This document shows positions 5,510 to 48,290 of a DNA stretch of 64,000 nt, piece by piece (the first letter of the stretch is position 1; each line of letters starts with the position of its first letter). This stretch comes from Actinomycetospora sp. TBRC 11914. Its GTDB lineage: Bacteria > Actinomycetota > Actinomycetes > Mycobacteriales > Pseudonocardiaceae. The notes beneath the pieces were generated by a model. It saw only the letters and a program-made list of their open reading frames with translations, was not told the DNA's origin and did no database searches. The position numbers and the translations under genes are program-made. The stretch is taken from assembly GCF_012933465.1 (NCBI RefSeq), contig NZ_JABBND010000014.1:1-64000 (forward strand). The letters are read 5' to 3'.

Positions 5510-6115
5510 CTATGGCGCGTACTCGCGGGCCGCGGCCCACAGCGTCCTGACGGCGAACTGTCCCGTCGGTTCGTCTACCACGGCGGCGTCGGCGACAAGG
5601 TCGTCCACCCGCTGTTCGAAGAGCGACCCGGACTGCCGGTGGTCGAGGTCCTCGGTCCGAACGAGACGCCAACCGCGCGTCGCGTAGTAGTCGCGGAGGC
5701 CGTCCGACGTCTTCCAGGTGTCGAGCCGGAGCACGCGGACCCCCTGGCTGGCGGCGTAGTGCCGGGCCCAGTCGAGCAGCTGGTTGCCCAGCTCCTGGCC
5801 CTTCAGGTCGACGTCGGTGGCCAGCTTGGACACGTACAGCGCGGGGACCCGCCGCTCGTCCTCCGACCAGAAGTCCCGGTCGGGGTCGGTGCTCACCGTG
5901 ATGGTCCCGAGGATCCGGCCGTTGTCGCCGTCCACGAGGACTCGGACGTGGCCTCGCCGGATGAGGTAGCAGAGCAGGTGGCGCCACTCCCGCACGGAGG
6001 CCCACTGATCGCTGAACTTGGTCTCCCACAACCACGCGCGACGCCCCTCGAGGATCGCCATGATCGCATCGATGTCCTGCTCGGTGGCGCGTCGGACCAG
6101 GTGCGGGGTGCTCAT
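5510..6115 (-). CDS. GNAT-family N-acetyltransferase
   Basis: A 201-residue GNAT protein that probably moves an acetyl group from acetyl-CoA to an amine. The central part VPALYVSKLATDVDLKGQ followed by LGNQLLDWA corresponds to GNAT motif A, and the C-terminal DGLRDYYATRGWRLVRTE to motif B. The start ATG (STPHLVRRAT) overlaps the stop of the upstream GntR gene (ATGA), so it is co-translated with that regulator. Base composition of the pair is less GC-extreme than the flanks. GntR plus GNAT next to a translocase fragment is a setting I associate with actinomycete integrative elements. The acceptor is unknown. Confidence 0.8.
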   Translation of the reverse strand: MSTPHLVRRATEQDIDAIMAILEGRRAWLWETKFSDQWASVREWRHLLCYLIRRGHVRVLVDGDNGRILGTITVSTDPDRDFWSEDERRVPALYVSKLATDVDLKGQELGNQLLDWARHYAASQGVRVLRLDTWKTSDGLRDYYATRGWRLVRTEDLDHRQSGSLFEQRVDDLVADAAVVDEPTGQFAVRTLWAAAREYAP

Positions 6116-6861
6116 GAGCCGACCTCGTAACTGACGTTCCAGCGGTCCGACGGGAGCACGGACGCCAGGACACGCATCGGCAGACCGTCTTCTGTGTAGC
6201 TCACCCGGGTATGCGCGATCACCGACACACCGGGAGCGATGTCGAGCTGCTCGACCTCGTGGTTGTGGGCTCGTCGGCACTCGATGCGGTCGCGGTGGCG
6301 GTGCATCTCGAGGTCGAGATCCTTGAGGACGTGGCGCGCGCCCGTGCTGATGTCGGCGGGACTGGCCAGGGGTGACCCGGCGACGAGGTCATACGGATAG
6401 AACGAGTCCGAGACCATGTAGGGCACGCCATCGATGCTCCGCAGCCGCCGTCGGGCGAGCACAGGTGCACCGTCCTCGAGGTCCAGCCCGGGCGGGACGT
6501 CGCGCGCGCCGGCGAGCACGGTCTCGACGCGGATGCTCTGGGAAGGCTTTCCGCCTTGGTCGCGGACGAGGGCGAAGAAGGCGTCCTCGAGACGCAGATC
6601 CTTCTCCCAGTCGGTCATCGGCATGACGTATCGCCGCGGACGGTGGACGTAGGTGCCCTTTGACGGGACCGAGCGGAGATAGCCGTCGGTGTGCAGCAGG
6701 GCGAGGGCGTCCCGCACGACCTGCAGGGAGACGGCCCACTGCTCCGCCAGCTCCGCGCGCTTGGGGAGCTGGTCACCGTCCTGCAGTTCGCCCGTGTCGA
6801 TCTTCTCGGCGTACTCCGCGGCGATGCGCTGATAGGCGGGCGACGCGAAGTCGCGTGCCAT
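6112..6861 (-). CDS. GntR-family regulator with UTRA domain (HutC/KorSA-like)
   Basis: A 249-residue regulator. The N-terminal winged helix (YQRIAAEYAEKIDTGELQDG, then LAEQWAVSLQVVRDALALL) is classical GntR, and the remainder, including YMVSDSFYPYDL and the late VIAHTRVSYTEDGLPMRVL, is the ligand-binding UTRA fold. The ATG at 6861 is preceded by AGGTGG with five-base spacing; a GTG three codons upstream overlaps that site and is rejected. Perfect TTGGACATGTCCAA and related palindromes lie just upstream and are the probable operator, implying autoregulation. KorSA-type regulators of integrative elements are the closest class I can suggest. Confidence 0.85.
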   Translation of the reverse strand: MARDFASPAYQRIAAEYAEKIDTGELQDGDQLPKRAELAEQWAVSLQVVRDALALLHTDGYLRSVPSKGTYVHRPRRYVMPMTDWEKDLRLEDAFFALVRDQGGKPSQSIRVETVLAGARDVPPGLDLEDGAPVLARRRLRSIDGVPYMVSDSFYPYDLVAGSPLASPADISTGARHVLKDLDLEMHRHRDRIECRRAHNHEVEQLDIAPGVSVIAHTRVSYTEDGLPMRVLASVLPSDRWNVSYEVGS

Positions 6862-6880
6862 GCCGACCACCTTTCATCGC

Positions 6881-6967
6881 TTGGACATGTCCAATGTACG
6901 GAGAGCGCTTGCGCGCCTACCGAGCGGGGTGCGACTCTTCCCTTGGACGTCCAAAGGACATGTCCAA
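6881..6967. promoter_or_regulatory. Operator cluster for the adjacent GntR regulator
   Basis: Three related palindromes: TTGGACATGTCCAA at 6881-6894, TTGGACGTCCAA at 6943-6954 and GGACATGTCC at 6956-6965. They lie directly upstream of the GntR start, so autoregulation and control of a rightward promoter are both likely. The region between here and 7178 holds no convincing gene. Confidence 0.65.
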
Positions 6968-7090
6968 GCTATGGGAGAGGTTCTACCTGACCTCTCTGCG
7001 TGTCAAGGTCAACGTCGACCGCGGTGCGCGCCGCTCTGCCTTCTCGTCCGTCCCCGGATGGCTCACGTCCGACGCATGTGCCGGAAAGGG

Positions 7091-7123
7091 ACGGCGGGCT
7101 GGTCTCGCACACCAGCCCGCCGT
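7091..7123 (+). terminator. Strong hairpin, probable terminator
   Basis: A perfect 13-bp stem (ACGGCGGGCTGGT with its complement) around a 7-base loop, without a T-tract. It lies between the operator cluster and the translocase fragment, so it would stop a rightward transcript starting at the operators. Strand is inferred from that context. Confidence 0.45.
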
Positions 7124-7178
7124 CGCCGAGCCGTCCCCAGTGGCCTGCAGCCATCGAAAGGACCAGCTCGGATGAACA

Positions 7179-7832
7179 GTGTGTCACCGTCGCGCCCCGA
7201 CCGTCACCGCCTGTGCGGGTGCGGTCACTCGGCCGTTCGCGGCTCGGGTGCTCCCGCGCCCCGCCGTCTCCGTCCCCCGGCTCCCTGTGCGCTCGGGGGT
7301 GGTCCGGGTGCGTGAGCCCTTCGGGCGGTGGGCCCCCGCCCCACTTCCTCCGGTCCCCAGCTCGCGGGACCTTCGCGAGTACCGGCTGGAGGAGACCGCT
7401 CTCAAGCACCAGATCCGCTGGATCTGGAACGAGTTCTGCTCCGGTGTCGAGCTGACCCACCGGATCGTCCCGACCGGCTACGGCACGCGTGAGCCCCCGC
7501 GTCTCGGGAACATCACCCTCGGTCCACCGACGCGTTTCAATGTCGAGCTCCGTCCCGGCCAGCTGGTACAGGACCTCCTCGCCGTCGGTGATCGACTGGC
7601 GGCGGCCTATCTCGTGGACGACGTCGACGTCTGGCCGCTCGCGGAACGCTGGGTCAAGATCGAACTCGTGGAGTACGGGATCGACGACCCGCGGAACCAC
7701 ACGACGCCGATCGACCCGCCGCGCCGGTCCGGACCCCGTCGGGACGAGGTCCGCACGTCGGGCCGCCACTGGCCGCGGCGGGAGCGGCGCGAGCGGCGGG
7801 GGACGACCGGTGACCAGCAGGTCGGCCCCTGA
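7179..7832 (+). pseudogene. Probable remnant of an FtsK/SpoIIIE (TraSA-like) translocase, N-terminal part only
   Basis: The frame is convincing only from about 7310 to 7690. The stretch ITLGPPTRFNVELRPGQL followed by QDLLAVGDRLAAA resembles the N-terminal segment that precedes the ATPase in FtsK/TraSA-type transfer proteins of actinomycete integrative elements. No Walker motif follows; after about 7690 the frame runs into low-complexity sequence and stops, so the motor domain is missing. The start is unresolved: GTG at 7179 and GTG at 7309 are in frame, while an ATG at 7172 with a decent ribosome binding site is in another frame, which would fit a frameshift. The family call rests on remembered pattern similarity. 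Confidence 0.4.
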
Positions 7833-32065: not shown

Positions 32066-33130
32066 CTACGCGGTCCGGCTCGCCTTCTCGTCGCTCTCGT
32101 CGTCGGCCTTCTTGCGGCGCGAGCGCGACGAGGACCCGGACGTCCCCGTCTTCTTCGTGCCCGACGAGCCCTTCTCGGCCGGGGCCTTCCCGCTCTTCGA
32201 CGACGAGCTCTTCTTCCGCGTGGACGAGCCCGCCGACCCGGACGCGGTCTCCTCGGCGGGCGCCTCGGCGTCGCCCGCGGGCTCCGGAGGGGCCTCGTCG
32301 GAGGTCTTCTCCTCGGAGGCCTTGCTGTCGGAGGCCTTGCCGTCGGAGGCCTTGCCGCCGGCCGCCTCGACCGAGCGGCGCAGCGCGGTGAGCAGGTCGG
32401 TCATGTCGTCGGTGTCCTCGGCCGCGGTCTCCTCCGGCGCCGGACGGCCGCCGCCGTGCTCGCGCTTGTACTCGATGAGCTCGCCGACGGCCTTGCGGTA
32501 GTCGTCCTCGAACTCGCCGACCTCGAACTCGCCGGAGAGCGAGTCGATGAGCGAGGACGCCATCGCCATCTCCTGCGGGCGGACCTCGACGTCGTTCTCG
32601 AGCACCGGGAAGTCGGCGTCGCGGACCTCGTCGGGCCAGAGCATCGTCTGCAGCACGATCGCGTTGTCGCGGACCCGCAGCAGGGCGAGGGTCTCGCGCT
32701 GGCGCAGCGCCACCTTCACCAGCGCCATCCGGTCGGTCTCGCGCAGCGCCTCGCGCAGCAGCGAGTAGGGCTTGAGCGCCTTGTTCTCCGGCTCGAGGTA
32801 GTAGCTCTTGTCGAGCAGCAGCGGGTCGACCTGCTCGGCCGGGACGAACTGCACGACGTCGATCTCGTGGCCGGTCGCGGTGGGCAGCGACGCGAGGTCG
32901 TCGTCGGTCAGCATGATCAGCTGGCCGTCGTCGGTCTCGTAGCCCTTCGCGATCTCGGAGTAGGCGACCTCCTCGCCGCACACCGAGCAGGTCCGCTTCT
33001 GGCGGATGCGCCCGCCGTCGACCTCGTGCACCTGGTGGAAGCGGATGTCGTGGTTCGACGTGGCGGCGTAGAGCCGTACGGGCACGTTGACCAGCCCGAA
33101 CGACACGGCGCCGTTCCAGATCGCGCGCAT
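32066..33130 (-). CDS. ku: Bacterial Ku protein (non-homologous end joining)
   Basis: A 354-residue homodimeric DNA-end-binding protein. The Ku core spans about residues 1-250 (MRAIWNGAVSFGLVNVPVRL, YETDDGQLIMLTDDDL, YLEPENKALKPYSLLREAL). The last 100 residues are a Ser/Lys/Glu-rich low-complexity tail ending in a basic cluster (RSRRKKADDE), the kind of extension that lets bacterial Ku thread along DNA and recruit LigD. No ligD is in the window, but a ligase-like protein lacking the catalytic lysine is divergently transcribed 181 bp away. Confidence 0.95.
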   Translation of the reverse strand: MRAIWNGAVSFGLVNVPVRLYAATSNHDIRFHQVHEVDGGRIRQKRTCSVCGEEVAYSEIAKGYETDDGQLIMLTDDDLASLPTATGHEIDVVQFVPAEQVDPLLLDKSYYLEPENKALKPYSLLREALRETDRMALVKVALRQRETLALLRVRDNAIVLQTMLWPDEVRDADFPVLENDVEVRPQEMAMASSLIDSLSGEFEVGEFEDDYRKAVGELIEYKREHGGGRPAPEETAAEDTDDMTDLLTALRRSVEAAGGKASDGKASDSKASEEKTSDEAPPEPAGDAEAPAEETASGSAGSSTRKKSSSSKSGKAPAEKGSSGTKKTGTSGSSSRSRRKKADDESDEKASRTA

Positions 33131-33311: not shown

Positions 33312-34136
33312 ATGCAGGGTGTCGGTGAGCGCAGCGCCGGGATCGTGCCGATGCAGCCGGTGCCCGGCCGGCTCCCGGTGGGGGAGCAGTGGAGCTACGA
33401 GGTCGACTGGAGCGGCATCCGCCTGCTCGCCGACGTCGACCAGGGGACGCTGTGCCTGCGCACCCTCGAGGGCGACGACGTGACGGCGCGGTTCCCGGAG
33501 TTCGCGGGCCTGGCCGACGTCGTGGCCGACGGGCTCTTCGACGGCGAGGCGGTGCTGCTCGACGCCGGACAGCCGTCCTCGCTCGCGCTCTTCGACCGGC
33601 TGCGCCGGGCCGATCCGCGCAAGGCCCGCTCCCTCGCGCGGGAACGGCCCGCGATCTTCATGGTCTACGACGTGCTGCGCCTCTACGGCGTCCCGCTCAC
33701 CGAGCGCCCGCTCGACGAGCGCCGGGCCACCCTCGGGCGGCTCTCGCTCGACGAGGTCGGCCGCATCCAGGTCTCGCCGGTGTACGACGACGGGGTGGCG
33801 CTGCTGGCCGGCGTGCGGGAGCAGGGGCTCCCCGGGGTCATGGCCCGGCGGCGCGACACGGGTCACGACGCCGGGTCCCCCGAGGACTGGGTGCGGGTGG
33901 TGGCGGGGGTCGACGCGTTCGACACCGCGCCCACCGCCCCCGTGACCGACCTCCCGGTCACCGACCTCCCCGTCGCCGACCGTCCCGAGCCGCCGCCCGC
34001 GGGGCCCGCGCTCTCCGCGCTCGCCCCGCCGCTGCCCGGGCTGCCGGCGCCGCCGGACCCGTCGTCGGGAAGCGGGAGACCGTCGGCGCGGGGGCGCCAC
34101 AGCCGGGACGAGGACGACGCCCCCGGCCTGTGGTGA
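33312..34136 (+). CDS. Degenerate ATP-dependent DNA-ligase-like protein (catalytic lysine absent)
   Basis: A 274-residue protein resembling the adenylation domain of LigC/LigD. Motif I, normally E-x-K-x-D-G, reads EVDWSG (residues 30-35), so the adenylated lysine is Asp. The motif III region FDGEAVLLD keeps Glu79; motif IIIa is recognisable (FMVYDVLRLYG); motif IV reads LPGVMARRR, with Arg in place of the lysine. There is no OB-fold, and the last 70 residues are Pro-rich. It cannot ligate by the known mechanism. The divergent ku gene suggests a DNA-end-related role. It shares the WSG change with the fusion protein at 45084. Confidence 0.7.
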   Translation: MQGVGERSAGIVPMQPVPGRLPVGEQWSYEVDWSGIRLLADVDQGTLCLRTLEGDDVTARFPEFAGLADVVADGLFDGEAVLLDAGQPSSLALFDRLRRADPRKARSLARERPAIFMVYDVLRLYGVPLTERPLDERRATLGRLSLDEVGRIQVSPVYDDGVALLAGVREQGLPGVMARRRDTGHDAGSPEDWVRVVAGVDAFDTAPTAPVTDLPVTDLPVADRPEPPPAGPALSALAPPLPGLPAPPDPSSGSGRPSARGRHSRDEDDAPGLW

Positions 34137-43243: not shown

Positions 43244-43930
43244 ATGACCCCGCCGACCACCCCACGGACCGCGCCCCCGCGGCCCGCCGACGCGCCGGTG
43301 GCGCCGGACTCCGGGGCACCGGCCGGGGCGGCCCCGGACGCCGACGTCACCGACGCCGAGCTCGTGGCCCGGCTCGTGGGTCGCGACGCGGCGGCGCTGG
43401 ACGGTCTCTACTCGCGCCACGGCCGGGCCGCCTTCTCCCTGGCCCGCCGGATCTGCGCCGACGAGGGCCTCGCCGAGGACGTCGTGCAGGAGGTGTTCCT
43501 CGTGCTGTGGCGCGACCCGGGCCGCTACGACCGCACCCGGGGCACCGTCGTGAGCTGGCTGCTCACCCTCACCCACCACAAGGCCGTCGACGCGGTCCGC
43601 CGCGAGGCCACCCGCCGTCGTCACCACGTGCCCACCGAGGAGCCCGACGCGGCCCTCACCGCCGTGCAGCCCTCCGCCGACCGGGCGGCCCTCGGCTCGG
43701 TGATCGCCGAGCACGTCCGCGCGGCGCTGCACCACCTGCCCAGCGAGCAGCGCCAGGCGCTCGGGCTGGCGTACTACGGCGGCTACACGCAGCGCGAGGT
43801 CGCGTCGATCACCGGGGTGCCGATCGGCACGGTGAAGTCGCGGATGTTCACCGGCGTCGCGAAGCTGCGCGTCCTCCTCGCCCCGGTGCTCGGCACCTCC
43901 GGGCTCGAGCTGCTGGGCGACACGTGGTGA
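43244..43930 (+). CDS. ECF-type RNA polymerase sigma factor
   Basis: A 228-residue sigma factor. It has a Pro/Ala-rich 35-residue leader, region 2 (GLAEDVVQEVFLVLWRDPGRY), and region 4 (LPSEQRQALGLAYYGGYTQR, then EVASITGVPIGTVKSRMF). This matches the SigK-like ECF group, which is normally paired with an RskA-type membrane anti-sigma factor, as here. The ATG follows a GGAGAGGAG site. The next gene starts within its stop (GTGA). The preceding 257 bp (42986-43243) hold no other gene and must contain its promoter. Confidence 0.9.
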   Translation: MTPPTTPRTAPPRPADAPVAPDSGAPAGAAPDADVTDAELVARLVGRDAAALDGLYSRHGRAAFSLARRICADEGLAEDVVQEVFLVLWRDPGRYDRTRGTVVSWLLTLTHHKAVDAVRREATRRRHHVPTEEPDAALTAVQPSADRAALGSVIAEHVRAALHHLPSEQRQALGLAYYGGYTQREVASITGVPIGTVKSRMFTGVAKLRVLLAPVLGTSGLELLGDTW

Positions 43931-44784
43931 GCGCGCCGCACGAGGGGCCGGCGGAGCTGGCCGCCGAGGTCGTGGGCCGGGCCCTGCGCGCGCTCGAGCC
44001 CGACGAGGAGGGCCGCGTCGCCGAGCACCTGCGCGACTGCGCGGCCTGCCGGGCGCTCCTGGCCGAGACCCACGAGACCATGGCCGCGCTGGCGCACGCG
44101 CTGCCGCCGGTGGAGCCGCCCCCGGCGCTGCGCGCCCGGATCCTCACCGCCGCGGCGGCCGAGCCGGACCCGCCGGCGGACCGCCGCACCGATCCCCGGA
44201 CGCCGACGCCGAGCCCCGTCCCGCTCGACGAGGCCCCGCCGCCGACGCCGACCGCCCCGACCCCGGTCCCCTCCGACACACCGCCGCTCCTGCCCCGCCG
44301 GCGCGCCGCGGCCGTGCTGGCACTGGCGGCGGTCGTCGCCGCGATCGTGGTGTTCGCCGCGCGCGGCGCGGTCTCGCCCGGTCCCGCCGACCCCCGCGAG
44401 GCCGTGGCCCAGCGGGCCCAGCAGGTCGTGGCGAGCGCCGAGGCCCGGGACCCGTCGGTGCGCACGGCCTCCCTCATCGAGCCGGACAGCGGCACCGTCG
44501 CCGCGGTCGTCCTCGACGACGGGACCGGTCCGCGGGTGGTGCCCCTGGCGATGCCGGCGATCGGCAGCGGCCGCAGCTTCGTGCTCTGGCGGGTCGCCGG
44601 GAACGCCGCGACGGCCGTCGGCACCATGGACGCGAGCGGGAGCCTCACCCCGACGACGACGGGTCCTCCGACGACGGCGCCCGGGGCGCCGCAGGTCCGG
44701 CGCGCCTACGCGCTGTCGGCCGAGCCGGTGGGCACGGTGCCGACCCGCCCGTCCTCGGTGGTCGCGAGCGGGCCGCTGGTCTGA
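43927..44784 (+). CDS. Anti-sigma factor with zinc-binding N-domain and RskA-type C-domain
   Basis: A 285-residue single-pass membrane protein. H-x3-C-x2-C in HLRDCAACRALL near residue 40 is the zinc-associated anti-sigma motif. A Pro-rich linker, one membrane segment (AVLALAAVVAAIVVFAARG, about 135-153) and an extracytoplasmic RskA-like domain follow (VPLAMPAIGSGRSFVLWRV). It should hold the upstream ECF sigma factor inactive until the outer domain is cleaved or changed. The GTG start overlaps the sigma-factor stop. The following 299 bp (44785-45083) contain no recognisable gene. Confidence 0.88.
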   Translation: MSAPHEGPAELAAEVVGRALRALEPDEEGRVAEHLRDCAACRALLAETHETMAALAHALPPVEPPPALRARILTAAAAEPDPPADRRTDPRTPTPSPVPLDEAPPPTPTAPTPVPSDTPPLLPRRRAAAVLALAAVVAAIVVFAARGAVSPGPADPREAVAQRAQQVVASAEARDPSVRTASLIEPDSGTVAAVVLDDGTGPRVVPLAMPAIGSGRSFVLWRVAGNAATAVGTMDASGSLTPTTTGPPTTAPGAPQVRRAYALSAEPVGTVPTRPSSVVASGPLV

Positions 44785-45083: not shown

Positions 45084-46913
45084 ATGCCGACCGCACCTCT
45101 GCCCGCGCCCGACGCGGTCGCCCACGTCCCGGGCCCGCGCGGCCGTGCCCGCCCGATGCTCGCCTCGCCGGGGGAGCTGCCGCGGGGCGCCGGCTGGGCG
45201 TTCGAGTTCGTGTGGTCGGGCCTGCGCTGCCTGGCCCACTCGAGCGGCGGTGAGCTCCGCCTGCTCGACGCCGAGGGGCACGACGTCACGGCCGCGTTCC
45301 CCGAGCTCGCGATGCCCGCGGCGCCCGGGGTGGTGCTCGACGGGGTGGTGGTCGCGCTCGACGCCGTCCGCCGGCCCAGCCCCGCCCGGCTGCGCCGGCG
45401 CCGCCGGGTCGACACGCCCTCCCGCGCGCTGGTCGAGAGCACCCCGGTCTCGTTCTACGTGTTCGACGTCCTCGAGGTCGCCGGCCGCTCCACGGCGCGG
45501 ATGACCTACCGCGAGCGCCGCGAGCTGCTCGGCGAGATCGACCTGTCCGGGGGCCGCCGCCTGGTCGTGCCGCCGATGTTCACCGGGGTGCCGGCCGACG
45601 AGGTCGTGCGCACCGCCCGGAACTACGGCCTCGAGGGGGTCGTCGCCAAGCGCCTCGAGTCCACCTACCAGGGCGGCCGGCGCTCCCGGAGCTGGATCTC
45701 GGCGGTGATCACCCGCCCGCAGAACGTGGTGGTCGGGGGATGGCTCCCGCCGCGCGGCGGGGGACCGGGGGTCGGCTCGCTGCTGCTCGGCGTGCCGAGC
45801 GAGGGGACGCTGCGCTACGTCGGCCGCGTCAGCACCGGGGTCACCGCCGCGGCGCGGCGGGAGATCCTCGACGCCGCCCGCCACCTCCGGGCCCCGGTCA
45901 GCCCGTTCGACGCCCCGCTGCCCGCCGACGCGCAGGGTGCCGCGCACTGGCTCGCGCCGCGCCTGGTGGGCCAGGTCGAGCACCGGCGGTGGACGCCGAC
46001 CGGGCTGCTCGGCCGCCCGGTGTGGCGCGGACTGCGGGCCGGCACCCACCCGGCCACCGTCCAGGCGCCCGTCCTCGCGGCGCCGGTCGTCGCGTCGGAC
46101 CTCGCGCTCGACGACCTGGAGACCGTCGAGCGTCCCCGGGCCCGCGTCACGGGGCACCCCCGGGGCATGACGGGGCCGGGGGGCACGCCGGACGTGGCGG
46201 TGCCGCGCGTGGCCGAGGGGGTCCTCGGCCCGCCGACCACCCCGATCACCGCCCCGCCGGTCGAGGTGTCGCTGCCCGACGCCGAGGTCGAGGCCGCGCT
46301 GCGCTCGCGGTTCTCCGCGCACTTCGTGCACAACGCGCTGACCGCGATCGCCACCTACGTGCGGGTCGACCCGTCCCGCGCGCGGGAGCTCCTCACCGAG
46401 TTCGCCGACTTCACGCGCTACTCGTTCCGCGACGGCGACGCGGGCACCACGGTCGCGGAGGAGCTGGGCAACGCCCGGCGCTACCTCACCCTCGAGCAGG
46501 CCCGGTTCGGGTCGCGGCTGGCCGTCGAGGTGTCCGTCGCGCCCGAGGTCGAGCACGTCGTGCTGCCGCCGTTCGTGGTCTCGCCGCTGGTGGAGAACGC
46601 GGTGCGGCACGGCATCGAGCCGACGCCCGAGGGCGGGACGGTGCACGTCACGGCCACCGGCGTGGGCTCCGACTGCGTGATCACCGTGTCCGACGACGGC
46701 GCCGGGATGGGCCCGGAGGCCTCGCGGGCGGTCTCCCAGGTCGACGCGCGCCACGGCGGCATCCACGAGGTCACCCGCCGGCTGCACGCGGCCTTCGGCA
46801 CCTCGTGCGACCTGCACGTCGACTCCCGGCCGGGCAGCGGGACCTCGGTGCGGCTCCGGGTCCCCGCGCGCCACCGCGACGAGCCCGCGCCGAGCCGGTT
46901 GCTGGTCAGCTGA
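45084..46913 (+). CDS. Fusion of a degenerate DNA-ligase domain plus OB-fold to a LytS-type histidine kinase
   Basis: A 609-residue soluble protein in one unbroken frame. Residues 25-215 resemble the LigC/LigD adenylation domain: motif I reads FEFVWSGLR, with Val43 at the lysine position; motif III reads LDGVVVALD, with Val88 replacing Glu; motif IIIa FYVFDVLEVAGR and motif IV LEGVVAKR (184-190) are kept; motif V (WISAVITRP) lacks its lysines. Residues 220-320 are a well-conserved OB-fold (LRYVGRVSTG, WRGLRAG). After a linker, residues 400-605 are a LytS-type kinase: H-box SAHFVHNALTAIA (His413), N-box ENAVRHGIEP, G-box DDGAGMG. No membrane segment. No response regulator is adjacent. Confidence 0.85.
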   Translation: MPTAPLPAPDAVAHVPGPRGRARPMLASPGELPRGAGWAFEFVWSGLRCLAHSSGGELRLLDAEGHDVTAAFPELAMPAAPGVVLDGVVVALDAVRRPSPARLRRRRRVDTPSRALVESTPVSFYVFDVLEVAGRSTARMTYRERRELLGEIDLSGGRRLVVPPMFTGVPADEVVRTARNYGLEGVVAKRLESTYQGGRRSRSWISAVITRPQNVVVGGWLPPRGGGPGVGSLLLGVPSEGTLRYVGRVSTGVTAAARREILDAARHLRAPVSPFDAPLPADAQGAAHWLAPRLVGQVEHRRWTPTGLLGRPVWRGLRAGTHPATVQAPVLAAPVVASDLALDDLETVERPRARVTGHPRGMTGPGGTPDVAVPRVAEGVLGPPTTPITAPPVEVSLPDAEVEAALRSRFSAHFVHNALTAIATYVRVDPSRARELLTEFADFTRYSFRDGDAGTTVAEELGNARRYLTLEQARFGSRLAVEVSVAPEVEHVVLPPFVVSPLVENAVRHGIEPTPEGGTVHVTATGVGSDCVITVSDDGAGMGPEASRAVSQVDARHGGIHEVTRRLHAAFGTSCDLHVDSRPGSGTSVRLRVPARHRDEPAPSRLLVS

Positions 46914-46961: not shown

Positions 46962-47243
46962 TCACTCGTCCGACTGCGCGCACCCGCCGTGGCCCGGGTC
47001 GCCGCCGAGGATCCCGGACAGGATCGGGACCTCGAGCCCGCAGGCCTGCACGGGGAGCAGGGTCGTGTGGTTGAGGATGCCGACGTCGCCGTGGTGGTCG
47101 TCGGAGTCCTGGCCGTCGGCGCGGGTGTGCGCCGAGGCCATCGGTGCCACGGCGGTCAGCGCGGCCGCCGAGAGCGCGAGGGCGGCGACGGGGGTGGCGG
47201 CGCGGCGACCGGACCACTGGCGCGGGGCGCGGTGCTTGGACAC
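46962..47243 (-). CDS. Small secreted chaplin-like protein
   Basis: A 93-residue protein with a signal peptide (cleavage probably after PMASA). The mature part of about 55 residues is His/Asp-rich, then GDVGILNHTTLLPVQACG and two cysteines 19 apart (QACGLEV, GGCAQ). The G...N...PVQ-CG...C order resembles a chaplin domain, the amphipathic surface proteins of filamentous actinobacteria, but the match is partial. The GTG start at 47243 has a GGGAGGA site. It converges on the kinase fusion gene. Confidence 0.7.
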   Translation of the reverse strand: MSKHRAPRQWSGRRAATPVAALALSAAALTAVAPMASAHTRADGQDSDDHHGDVGILNHTTLLPVQACGLEVPILSGILGGDPGHGGCAQSDE

Positions 47244-47498
47244 GGAGTTCCTCCCGGATGATCGGACCAGTGAGATCGACCGTTCGTCGCAGCAGCGATG
47301 CGACGAGCGGTGCAGGCGGAGCGTGCGCCCGCGGTGACGGGTGGGGCCACTGGGACGACTGATCACGCCCGGAAAAGGTGGTCCCGCTCGCGCCGGGTCA
47401 GGCGGTGAGGTACAAGGGCCGAACGGTCGCTCTGGTGCGACGAGCGGTTGAACGGACCGGGGCCGGCACGGGATCGGGCCGGCGGCGAGGATGGGGAC

Positions 47499-48290
47499 GT
47501 GCGCGTCCTCGCGGTCGACTGGTCGGGCGACGCCCGGGACGCGCGCCGCCGCATCCGGGTCGCCGAGGCGCGCCCGGGGCGGCTGCGCTCCGTCCGCGGC
47601 GGGCTCGACCGCGACGGCGTCGGGGACCTCCTGCTCGCGCTGCGGCAGGGGCCCACGCCCGCCGCCGTCGGGCTGGACTTCTCCTTCGGGCTCCCCGGGT
47701 GGTTCGCGCGGGCGCACGGCGCCGGCGACCTGCCGGGGACGTGGGCACTCGCGGCGGCCGACGGCGAGCGCTGGCTGCGGGAGTGTCCGCCACCGTTCTG
47801 GGGCCGCCCCGGTACCCGCCGGCCCGCCGACGACCCGGCCCGCCCGCTCCTGCGCCGCACCGAGCAGGAGGCGGGGGCGCAGGGCCTGCACCCGCTCTCG
47901 ACGTTCCAGGTGGGCGGGGCCGGCGCGGTCGGGACCGGATCGGTCCGGGGGATGGCGCTGCTCGCGCGGTGGCGGGCGGCCGGGATCGGGGTGTGGCCGC
48001 TCGACCCGGCCCCGGGGCCGGAGGGGGTGCTCGTCGTCGAGGTGTACCCGCGGGCGATGACCGGGCCGGTGGTGAAGTCCTCGGGCGCGGCGCGGGCGGC
48101 CCACGTCGCCGCCGACCCCCGCATCCCGGTGGAGCTGCGCGACGACGTGGCCGCCACCGAGGACGCCTTCGACGCCGCCCTGGCCGCGCTCGGGATGGCC
48201 GAGCACGTCGACGGGCCGGCGTCCCTGGGCGCGTCGGCCGACCCGACGGACCGGCTCGAGGGCCGGATGTGGCTGCCGCCTAGAGGGTGA
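47499..48290 (+). CDS. DUF429 protein (RNase H-like fold), function unknown
   Basis: A 263-residue protein starting RVLAVDWSGDARDA, where the DWSG motif marks the DUF429 family. Further conserved stretches are VGLDFSFGLPGWFAR, HPLSTFQVGGAGAVG and VEVYPRAMTGPVVKS. The acidic residues suggest a nuclease-like fold, but no activity is established. The GTG at 47499 is the start; the upstream 255 bp (47244-47498) carry no gene and share a TGCGACGAGCGG motif twice. Its last 11 bases overlap the convergent oxidoreductase gene. Confidence 0.78.
   Translation: MRVLAVDWSGDARDARRRIRVAEARPGRLRSVRGGLDRDGVGDLLLALRQGPTPAAVGLDFSFGLPGWFARAHGAGDLPGTWALAAADGERWLRECPPPFWGRPGTRRPADDPARPLLRRTEQEAGAQGLHPLSTFQVGGAGAVGTGSVRGMALLARWRAAGIGVWPLDPAPGPEGVLVVEVYPRAMTGPVVKSSGAARAAHVAADPRIPVELRDDVAATEDAFDAALAALGMAEHVDGPASLGASADPTDRLEGRMWLPPRG

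Follow-up and report, generated by a model that had tools for sequence, protein, structure and literature searches.

Within a 64,000-nucleotide stretch of the genome of Actinomycetospora sp. TBRC 11914 (contig NZ_JABBND010000014.1, positions 1 to 64,000; hereafter the window), one gene joins a LigD-type DNA ligase domain pair, stripped of its catalytic residues, to a soluble LytS-type histidine kinase. By computation we established this architecture, the loss of catalytic residues, evolutionary constraint and the membership of the ligase halves in one clade, and in three of the four genera that carry the fusion we found an apparent linkage to ku, a gene of non-homologous end joining (NHEJ). 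We tentatively propose, with a confidence that stops a little short of even, that the product is an NHEJ-linked cytosolic signalling protein in which the dead ligase acts as a docking or sensing input module. The gene and its parts are arranged as follows:

45084..46913, + strand: pseudo-ligase/LytS-type histidine kinase fusion, 609 amino acids (open reading frame, Pfam, orthologues)
45144..45713, + strand: LigD-type nucleotidyltransferase (adenylation) domain, residues 21-210, without the motif I Lys, motif III Glu, motif V Lys and Arg63
45714..46073, + strand: ligase OB-fold domain, residues 211-330, with the motif VI Asp (position 320) lost
46074..46268, + strand: variable linker, residues 331-395, under weak constraint (alignment and the ratio of non-synonymous to synonymous substitution rates, dN/dS)
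46269..46523, + strand: DHp domain (Pfam), residues 396-480, with the phospho-acceptor His413 present in 37/37 fusions
46524..46883, + strand: HATPase (CA) domain, residues 481-600, with N-box Asn505 and the G1 box intact

The frame begins at an ATG directly preceded by AAGGAGG and continues for 609 codons with zero internal stops. Its guanine-plus-cytosine content by codon position (0.78/0.57/0.985) is alike in the ligase half, linker and kinase half, the coding signature of a genuine gene throughout. The unbroken frame described in the original prediction is intact in the window and in 14 named Actinomycetospora orthologues, with no frameshift or stop between the halves; in a 15th (L039) the frame is interrupted by a contig end, and this locus, whose N-terminal part is missing, was excluded from the tree and the motif table. 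Pfam places DNA_ligase_A_M (residues 35-205, 1.2e-18) and DNA_ligase_A_C (229-318, 5.7e-18) ahead of His_kinase (405-479, 3.7e-15) and HATPase_c (498-596, 6e-11), all four exceeding the curated cut-offs, which bears out the predicted order of a LigC/LigD-like adenylation domain and OB-fold before a kinase. The ligase domains are the only Pfam matches N-terminal to the kinase, with no membrane or GAF input domain among them, and hydrophobicity stays below membrane-helix grade (best 19-residue Kyte-Doolittle mean 1.63, against 2.86 in the paralogous LytS kinase). The kinase, with a DHp domain of LytS type by Pfam, is soluble as proposed, and the boxes attributed to it could be read in the window protein: the H-box with His413, the N-box PLVENAVRHG and the G1 box DDGAGMG.

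By sequence, the N-terminal half is closest among solved structures to the Mycobacterium tuberculosis LigD ligase domain, and the C-terminal half to the histidine kinase 6swj. Structure prediction of the ligase half from 25 alignment rows (predicted local distance difference test score, pLDDT, 89), compared with LigD 1vs0 and nick-bound LIG1, yielded a LigD-type ligase fold and so supports the expected nucleotidyltransferase assignment. A prediction of the full-length fusion from 15 orthologues reached a pLDDT of 49 and was discarded.

Homologues with the same fusion, a test set beforehand, were found in dozens of genomes. A search with the window protein located the fusion in 17/18 Actinomycetospora genomes, the genome without it being 83% complete, and at 15 named loci of the genus, including Actinomycetospora chiangmaiensis. 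Using a profile built from 14 fusions (E < 1e-125), we surveyed 386 Pseudonocardiaceae genomes and obtained matches in 87, of which three (genus g7) and G273 (g30) matched over the ligase part only. Both halves were matched in 83 genomes: 17 from g1 (Actinomycetospora, the genus of the window), 10 from g14, 54 from g30 and 2 from g45, the last three being other genera of the family, of which g30 is, at a guess, Pseudonocardia. With G273 there are 84 genomes from the fusion genera, and the fusion is confined to these four genera among the 386 genomes. Among 200 genomes from the order, some of them Pseudonocardiaceae, searched at E up to 1e-100, both halves were found only in G000 and G289, both Pseudonocardiaceae, at a threshold that a more diverged fusion would escape; the profile search covered family and order, with class and phylum outside it. 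A pattern scan of contigs recovered the full fusion from Actinomycetospora only and, having missed the other fusion genera, sets no limit on distribution.

This distribution bears on whether the gene is a decaying relic or an assembly artefact. Such a reading would accommodate the lost catalytic residues, a decayed kinase half in g30 and the single stop that falls within the matched stretch in four of the 84 genomes (G195, G196, G285 and G322), but it sits badly with presence in 84 genomes and in 17/18 of the genus, with purifying selection on both halves and with frames unbroken in the window and 14 orthologues. The intact frame, the frames of the orthologues and the presence in 84 genomes led us to reject an artefact or frame error; on these genomic grounds we regard the reading as largely refuted, with scarcely any probability left to it.

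Ligase catalysis by the fusion is most unlikely, because the motif I Lys, the motif III Glu and Arg63 are gone while 20/20 active relatives keep them. In the window protein, motif I is EFVWSGLR (Val43 for Lys), motif III is VLDGVVVA (Val88 for Glu) and motif V is WISAV (Ser206 for Lys), with EGVVAKR of motif IV retained, all as originally read. As PMC6698739 sets out, ligases are adenylated on the motif I Lys, the ribose is held by an acidic residue of motif III together with the Arg of motif I, and a motif V Lys touches the alpha-phosphate; the adenine is sandwiched between an aromatic residue of motif IIIa and an aliphatic one of motif IV, with a motif IV Lys at adenine N1, and a second conserved Arg (R42 in ChlV-Lig) contacts nicked DNA. 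Position 63 of the fusion would, from the alignment, be this nick-contacting Arg. We read these positions residue by residue in 37 fusions: 15 from Actinomycetospora (the window and 14 named loci), 15 from g30 and 7 from g14/g45, 22 being from other genomes, two of them from one genome; most fusions from the profile search lie outside this set. The motif I Lys, motif III Glu and Arg63 are each present in 0/37, the motif V Lys (position 206) in 2/37 and the motif VI Asp (320) in 1/36, and Arg48 of motif I is retained in 36/37. Ligase relatives with active motifs (n = 20, 18 from Pseudonocardiaceae) keep the motif I Lys, motif III Glu, Arg63, motif IV Glu (184), motif V Lys and motif VI Asp in 20/20. 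Loci L001, L003 and L056, in which the motif I Lys and motif III Glu are present, the LigD row L005 and the Ku-side pseudo-ligases described below were left out of that comparison.

These losses divide the earlier suggestion that the dead ligase senses nicked or broken DNA. The connection with breaks gains from adjacency to ku, seen in two other genera; nick sensing by the old active site is disfavoured, because Arg63 and the motif V Lys are lost together with the catalytic residues. Nucleotide binding without chemistry may be possible in Actinomycetospora and g14/g45, because both the adenine-stacking Phe127 and the motif IV residue Lys189 are kept in 22/22 of these fusions (15/15 and 7/7). 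The fusion might then be an adenine-nucleotide sensor, in which the adenine pocket reads AMP/ATP, NAD or adenylated nucleic acid and gates the kinase. The near-universal Arg48 agrees with this, as does the joint loss of Phe127 and the kinase N-box Asn in 15/15 g30 fusions. Set against it are the loss, from all or nearly all fusions read, of residues that hold phosphate and ribose (motif I Lys, III Glu, V Lys and VI Asp), the chance that the correlation of Phe127 with the N-box reflects one evolutionary event, and a linkage to ku that a nucleotide sensor leaves unexplained. We think this explanation unlikely.

The dead ligase domain is under purifying selection, as is the kinase, and the linker between them is less constrained (dN/dS 0.61 and 0.67 in two subgroups). 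In the ligase-domain tree, 36 fusion ligase domains form one clade (96/100) within the LigD-type ligases, and the g14 and g45 fusions are sisters; L092, a g30 locus by its handle, branches away from the other g30 domains with weak support. The LigD-type domain probably became catalytically dead a single time, ahead of the separation of today's genera, and would have been retained as an input module. Kinase halves cluster with the ordinary LytS-type kinase of the window genome and not with four more distant kinases.

The kinase half differs in state among genera. Actinomycetospora fusions have complete H-, N- and G1-boxes in 15/15 and a constrained CA domain (dN/dS 0.22 and 0.09). The g14/g45 fusions keep the N-box Asn in 7/7, yet have gaps after G1 in 7/7. 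Fusions are most numerous in g30, and there 15/15 lack the N-box Asn and 14/15 have a shortened C-terminal end. His413 is kept in every fusion of the motif table, including 15/15 from g30, which points to phosphoryl transfer over mere dimerisation. The predicted signalling by phosphorylation is plausible for Actinomycetospora; in g30 the ATP-binding part has decayed. The g30 members could instead be phosphotransferases like Spo0B, itself a phosphotransferase, that take phosphate from another kinase, leaving only Actinomycetospora-type members as kinases. A retained His413 beside a lost N-box Asn and a shortened end fits this, but no partner was identified and the idea bears on g30 and not on the window protein; we consider it very improbable.

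The window genome (97% complete) encodes two LytS-type kinases and two LytTR genes. The other LytS-type kinase has a membrane-like segment and a core 56% identical to that of the fusion; no more than 5 kb from it are the first LytTR gene, whose start is receiver-like, and a symporter-like gene (both by eye). Both LytTR genes are on contigs other than that of the fusion, and no LytTR regulator adjoins the fusion. The orphan partner that had been suggested was not identified among these two genes in a genome-wide search for LytTR regulators, with NarL-type and other regulators outside that search; cross-talk with the LytTR regulator near the other LytS-type kinase is the simplest guess. The second LytTR gene (L070, about 5950-7228, contig C31) has no evident receiver region and adjoins an acyl-CoA-synthetase-like gene (by eye).

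The case for a role in NHEJ comes from the position of ku. Two features of the window are relevant here:

32066..33130, - strand: Ku, break-binding NHEJ protein (Pfam Ku, 5.4e-51), with its ATG at 33130, about 12 kb upstream of the fusion
33312..34136, + strand: second pseudo-ligase, divergent from Ku, with an adenylation domain only and motif I EVDWSGIR (Asp for Lys); the start ATG at 33312 is a guess

In Actinomycetospora, ku lies 8-12 kb from the fusion, beside the second pseudo-ligase, in 5/5 genomes measured. The association is tighter in g14, where ku is directly upstream of the fusion on the same strand in 10/10 genomes, the matched stretches ranging from a 7-base overlap to about 160 bases apart. 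One fusion copy is convergent with ku in 2/2 g45 genomes, and at locus L088 of G388 (g45) a pseudo-ligase, ku and the fusion are consecutive. This adjacency suggests a link of the fusion to DNA breaks. The mere presence of ku was rejected as evidence for an NHEJ role, as genomes without the fusion carry it equally often, and only adjacency carries weight.

The second type of pseudo-ligase has no OB domain and has Asp for the motif I Lys. Its 9 tree rows, 8 of them from Actinomycetospora, form a separate dead clade (100/100) apart from the fusion ligase domains; outside the window it was seen at 7 named loci of the genus and, in one g45 genome, next to ku. The window genome further contains a LigD gene (L073, about 5650-7824, contig C62) in which motif I is EFAWDGVR, with Ala for Lys, and the motif III Glu is kept; its ligase domain is followed by phosphoesterase-like and polymerase-like domains (by eye). 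In L171, a relative from the same genus, Thr replaces the motif I Lys.

Adjacency to ku would also suit a protein that acts as a brake or scaffold in NHEJ, with the dead ligase competing with active ligases on Ku-held ends, or positioning them, and the LytS part mainly a dimeriser whose kinase activity is secondary. Ligases with intact motifs do co-occur in fusion genomes (G197, G192, G267, G279, G324, G004 and G011), and in g30 it is the ATP-binding part that decayed while the DHp and ligase parts remain; the adjacency in g14/g45 fits too. This explanation does not account for a His413 kept in 37/37, which dimerisation alone would not need, or for the constraint on the CA domain in Actinomycetospora, and we rate it as unlikely, on a level with the nucleotide sensor.

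Under the signalling proposal that we favour, the most likely docking partner of the ligase half would be DNA ends held by Ku, or else the NHEJ complex. Two protomers docked across a break would bring their DHp helices together and so change the phosphorylation of His413, which in Actinomycetospora would be phosphorylated by ATP bound on the C-terminal domain. A response regulator would then receive the phosphoryl signal; one candidate is the LytTR regulator whose gene lies near the genome's one further LytS-type kinase. That the protein docks on Ku or DNA, that breaks activate it and which regulator it addresses are our inferences. A stronger form of the idea, in which the dead ligase reads Ku-held ends and the histidine kinase reports to transcription, making the protein a Ku-coupled bacterial kinase equivalent in function to DNA-PK though assembled from unrelated parts, is doubtful at present.

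Several observations weigh against the signalling proposal. The ku gene occurs in 20/20 fusion genomes and 20/20 non-fusion genomes, and the sister relationship of g14 and g45 means that its adjacency there may be a single event. In the G388 copy next to ku the match to the kinase half is fragmentary, with the profile search covering its ligase part only, so this copy may be frameshifted; the second G388 copy (L105) has no ku within the fetched 5 kb. In g30 the fetched fusion neighbourhoods contain no ku, which lies at least 1.9 Mb away in 6/6 genomes with both on the same contig and on other contigs in the remaining 5 of the 11 examined; this is also the genus in which the N-box Asn and C-terminal end are affected. 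Arg63, the putative nick contact, is lost, and the closed conformation of the predicted ligase model may be predictor bias. The fusions are not one clade in the kinase-half tree, where an ordinary LytS kinase stands beside the g14/g45 fusions; this placement inside the fusion group is weakly supported (90/66), and the kinase tree is compatible with a single fusion event without establishing it. Among 20 neighbouring proteins encoded in the window we recognised no response regulator. Finally, no SOS-like box (GAACN4GTTC) was found in the window or the scanned g14 loci; where such boxes do occur, at 5 named loci of Actinomycetospora and at both g45 loci, the fusion is more than 2 kb away.

Both halves belong to known families. 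Relative to the LigD ligase domain (M. tuberculosis LigD; PDB 1vs0, 6nhz, 6nhx), the fusion has the whole domain pair at 36-38% identity and the same predicted fold, but lacks the motif I Lys, III Glu, V Lys, VI Asp and Arg63, has no polymerase or phosphoesterase domain and carries a kinase. The Ku-LigD system of bacterial NHEJ resembles it in the LigD-type domain and in the apparent ku linkage across three genera; the fusion ligase is catalytically dead and the kinase is an addition. LytS-type kinases usually carry a membrane or GAF input domain and usually adjoin a LytTR response regulator gene. The fusion matches such His_kinase (PF06580)/HATPase_c proteins in its H-, N- and G1-boxes and in the core shared with the LytS-type kinase of the same genome; it differs in having neither a membrane segment nor a LytTR regulator on the same contig, and in its pseudo-ligase input domain. 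DNA-PK consists of eukaryotic Ku plus a kinase with Ser/Thr chemistry. Here a kinase coupled to Ku at broken ends, a coupling that is proposed only, would offer a possible analogy; the kinase folds are unrelated and the fusion uses histidine chemistry.

Soluble histidine kinases with uncommon input domains are already familiar. We know of no kinase in bacterial NHEJ and no description of a Ku-tied break-signalling kinase in bacteria. A term search of the survey PMC7719229 met 'kinase' a single time, among its references, and neither 'fusion' nor 'inactive'. No such protein was described in the open-licence literature searched (pseudoligase; ligase with histidine kinase domains; Actinomycetospora with NHEJ), in line with the original impression of an undescribed architecture, and a pseudo-ligase serving as kinase input and linked to ku appears new. 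If the proposal is true, the fold of a DNA-repair enzyme has been recruited to serve a two-component kinase as its input domain, and NHEJ-bearing bacteria would have a break-signalling kinase tied to Ku; a proven coupling to Ku would merit a higher standing as a novelty. The fusion is in any case a clear repair pseudoenzyme with close active relatives to serve as controls, and its presence in named soil actinobacteria such as A. chiangmaiensis makes the idea directly testable.

Three further features surround the fusion in the window:

43244..44784, + strand: pair of a sigma factor and an RskA-like anti-sigma factor, immediately upstream of the fusion
46962-47270, convergent with the fusion: small, apparently secreted protein (by eye), present in 6/15 named loci
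47448..48290, + strand: 280-amino-acid protein without a Pfam hit, encoded downstream of the fusion and on its strand in 15/15 named Actinomycetospora loci

The sigma/RskA-like pair adjoins the fusion in most named Actinomycetospora loci; any functional link between them would be conjectural. The 280-amino-acid protein has a weak PADLOC match (1.9e-07) to the candidate defence family PDC-S44. Around the g30 fusions (L074-L085 and L093), the neighbours are conserved and unrelated to NHEJ, comprising a divergent helicase gene and downstream HAD hydrolase and GH65-like genes (by eye).
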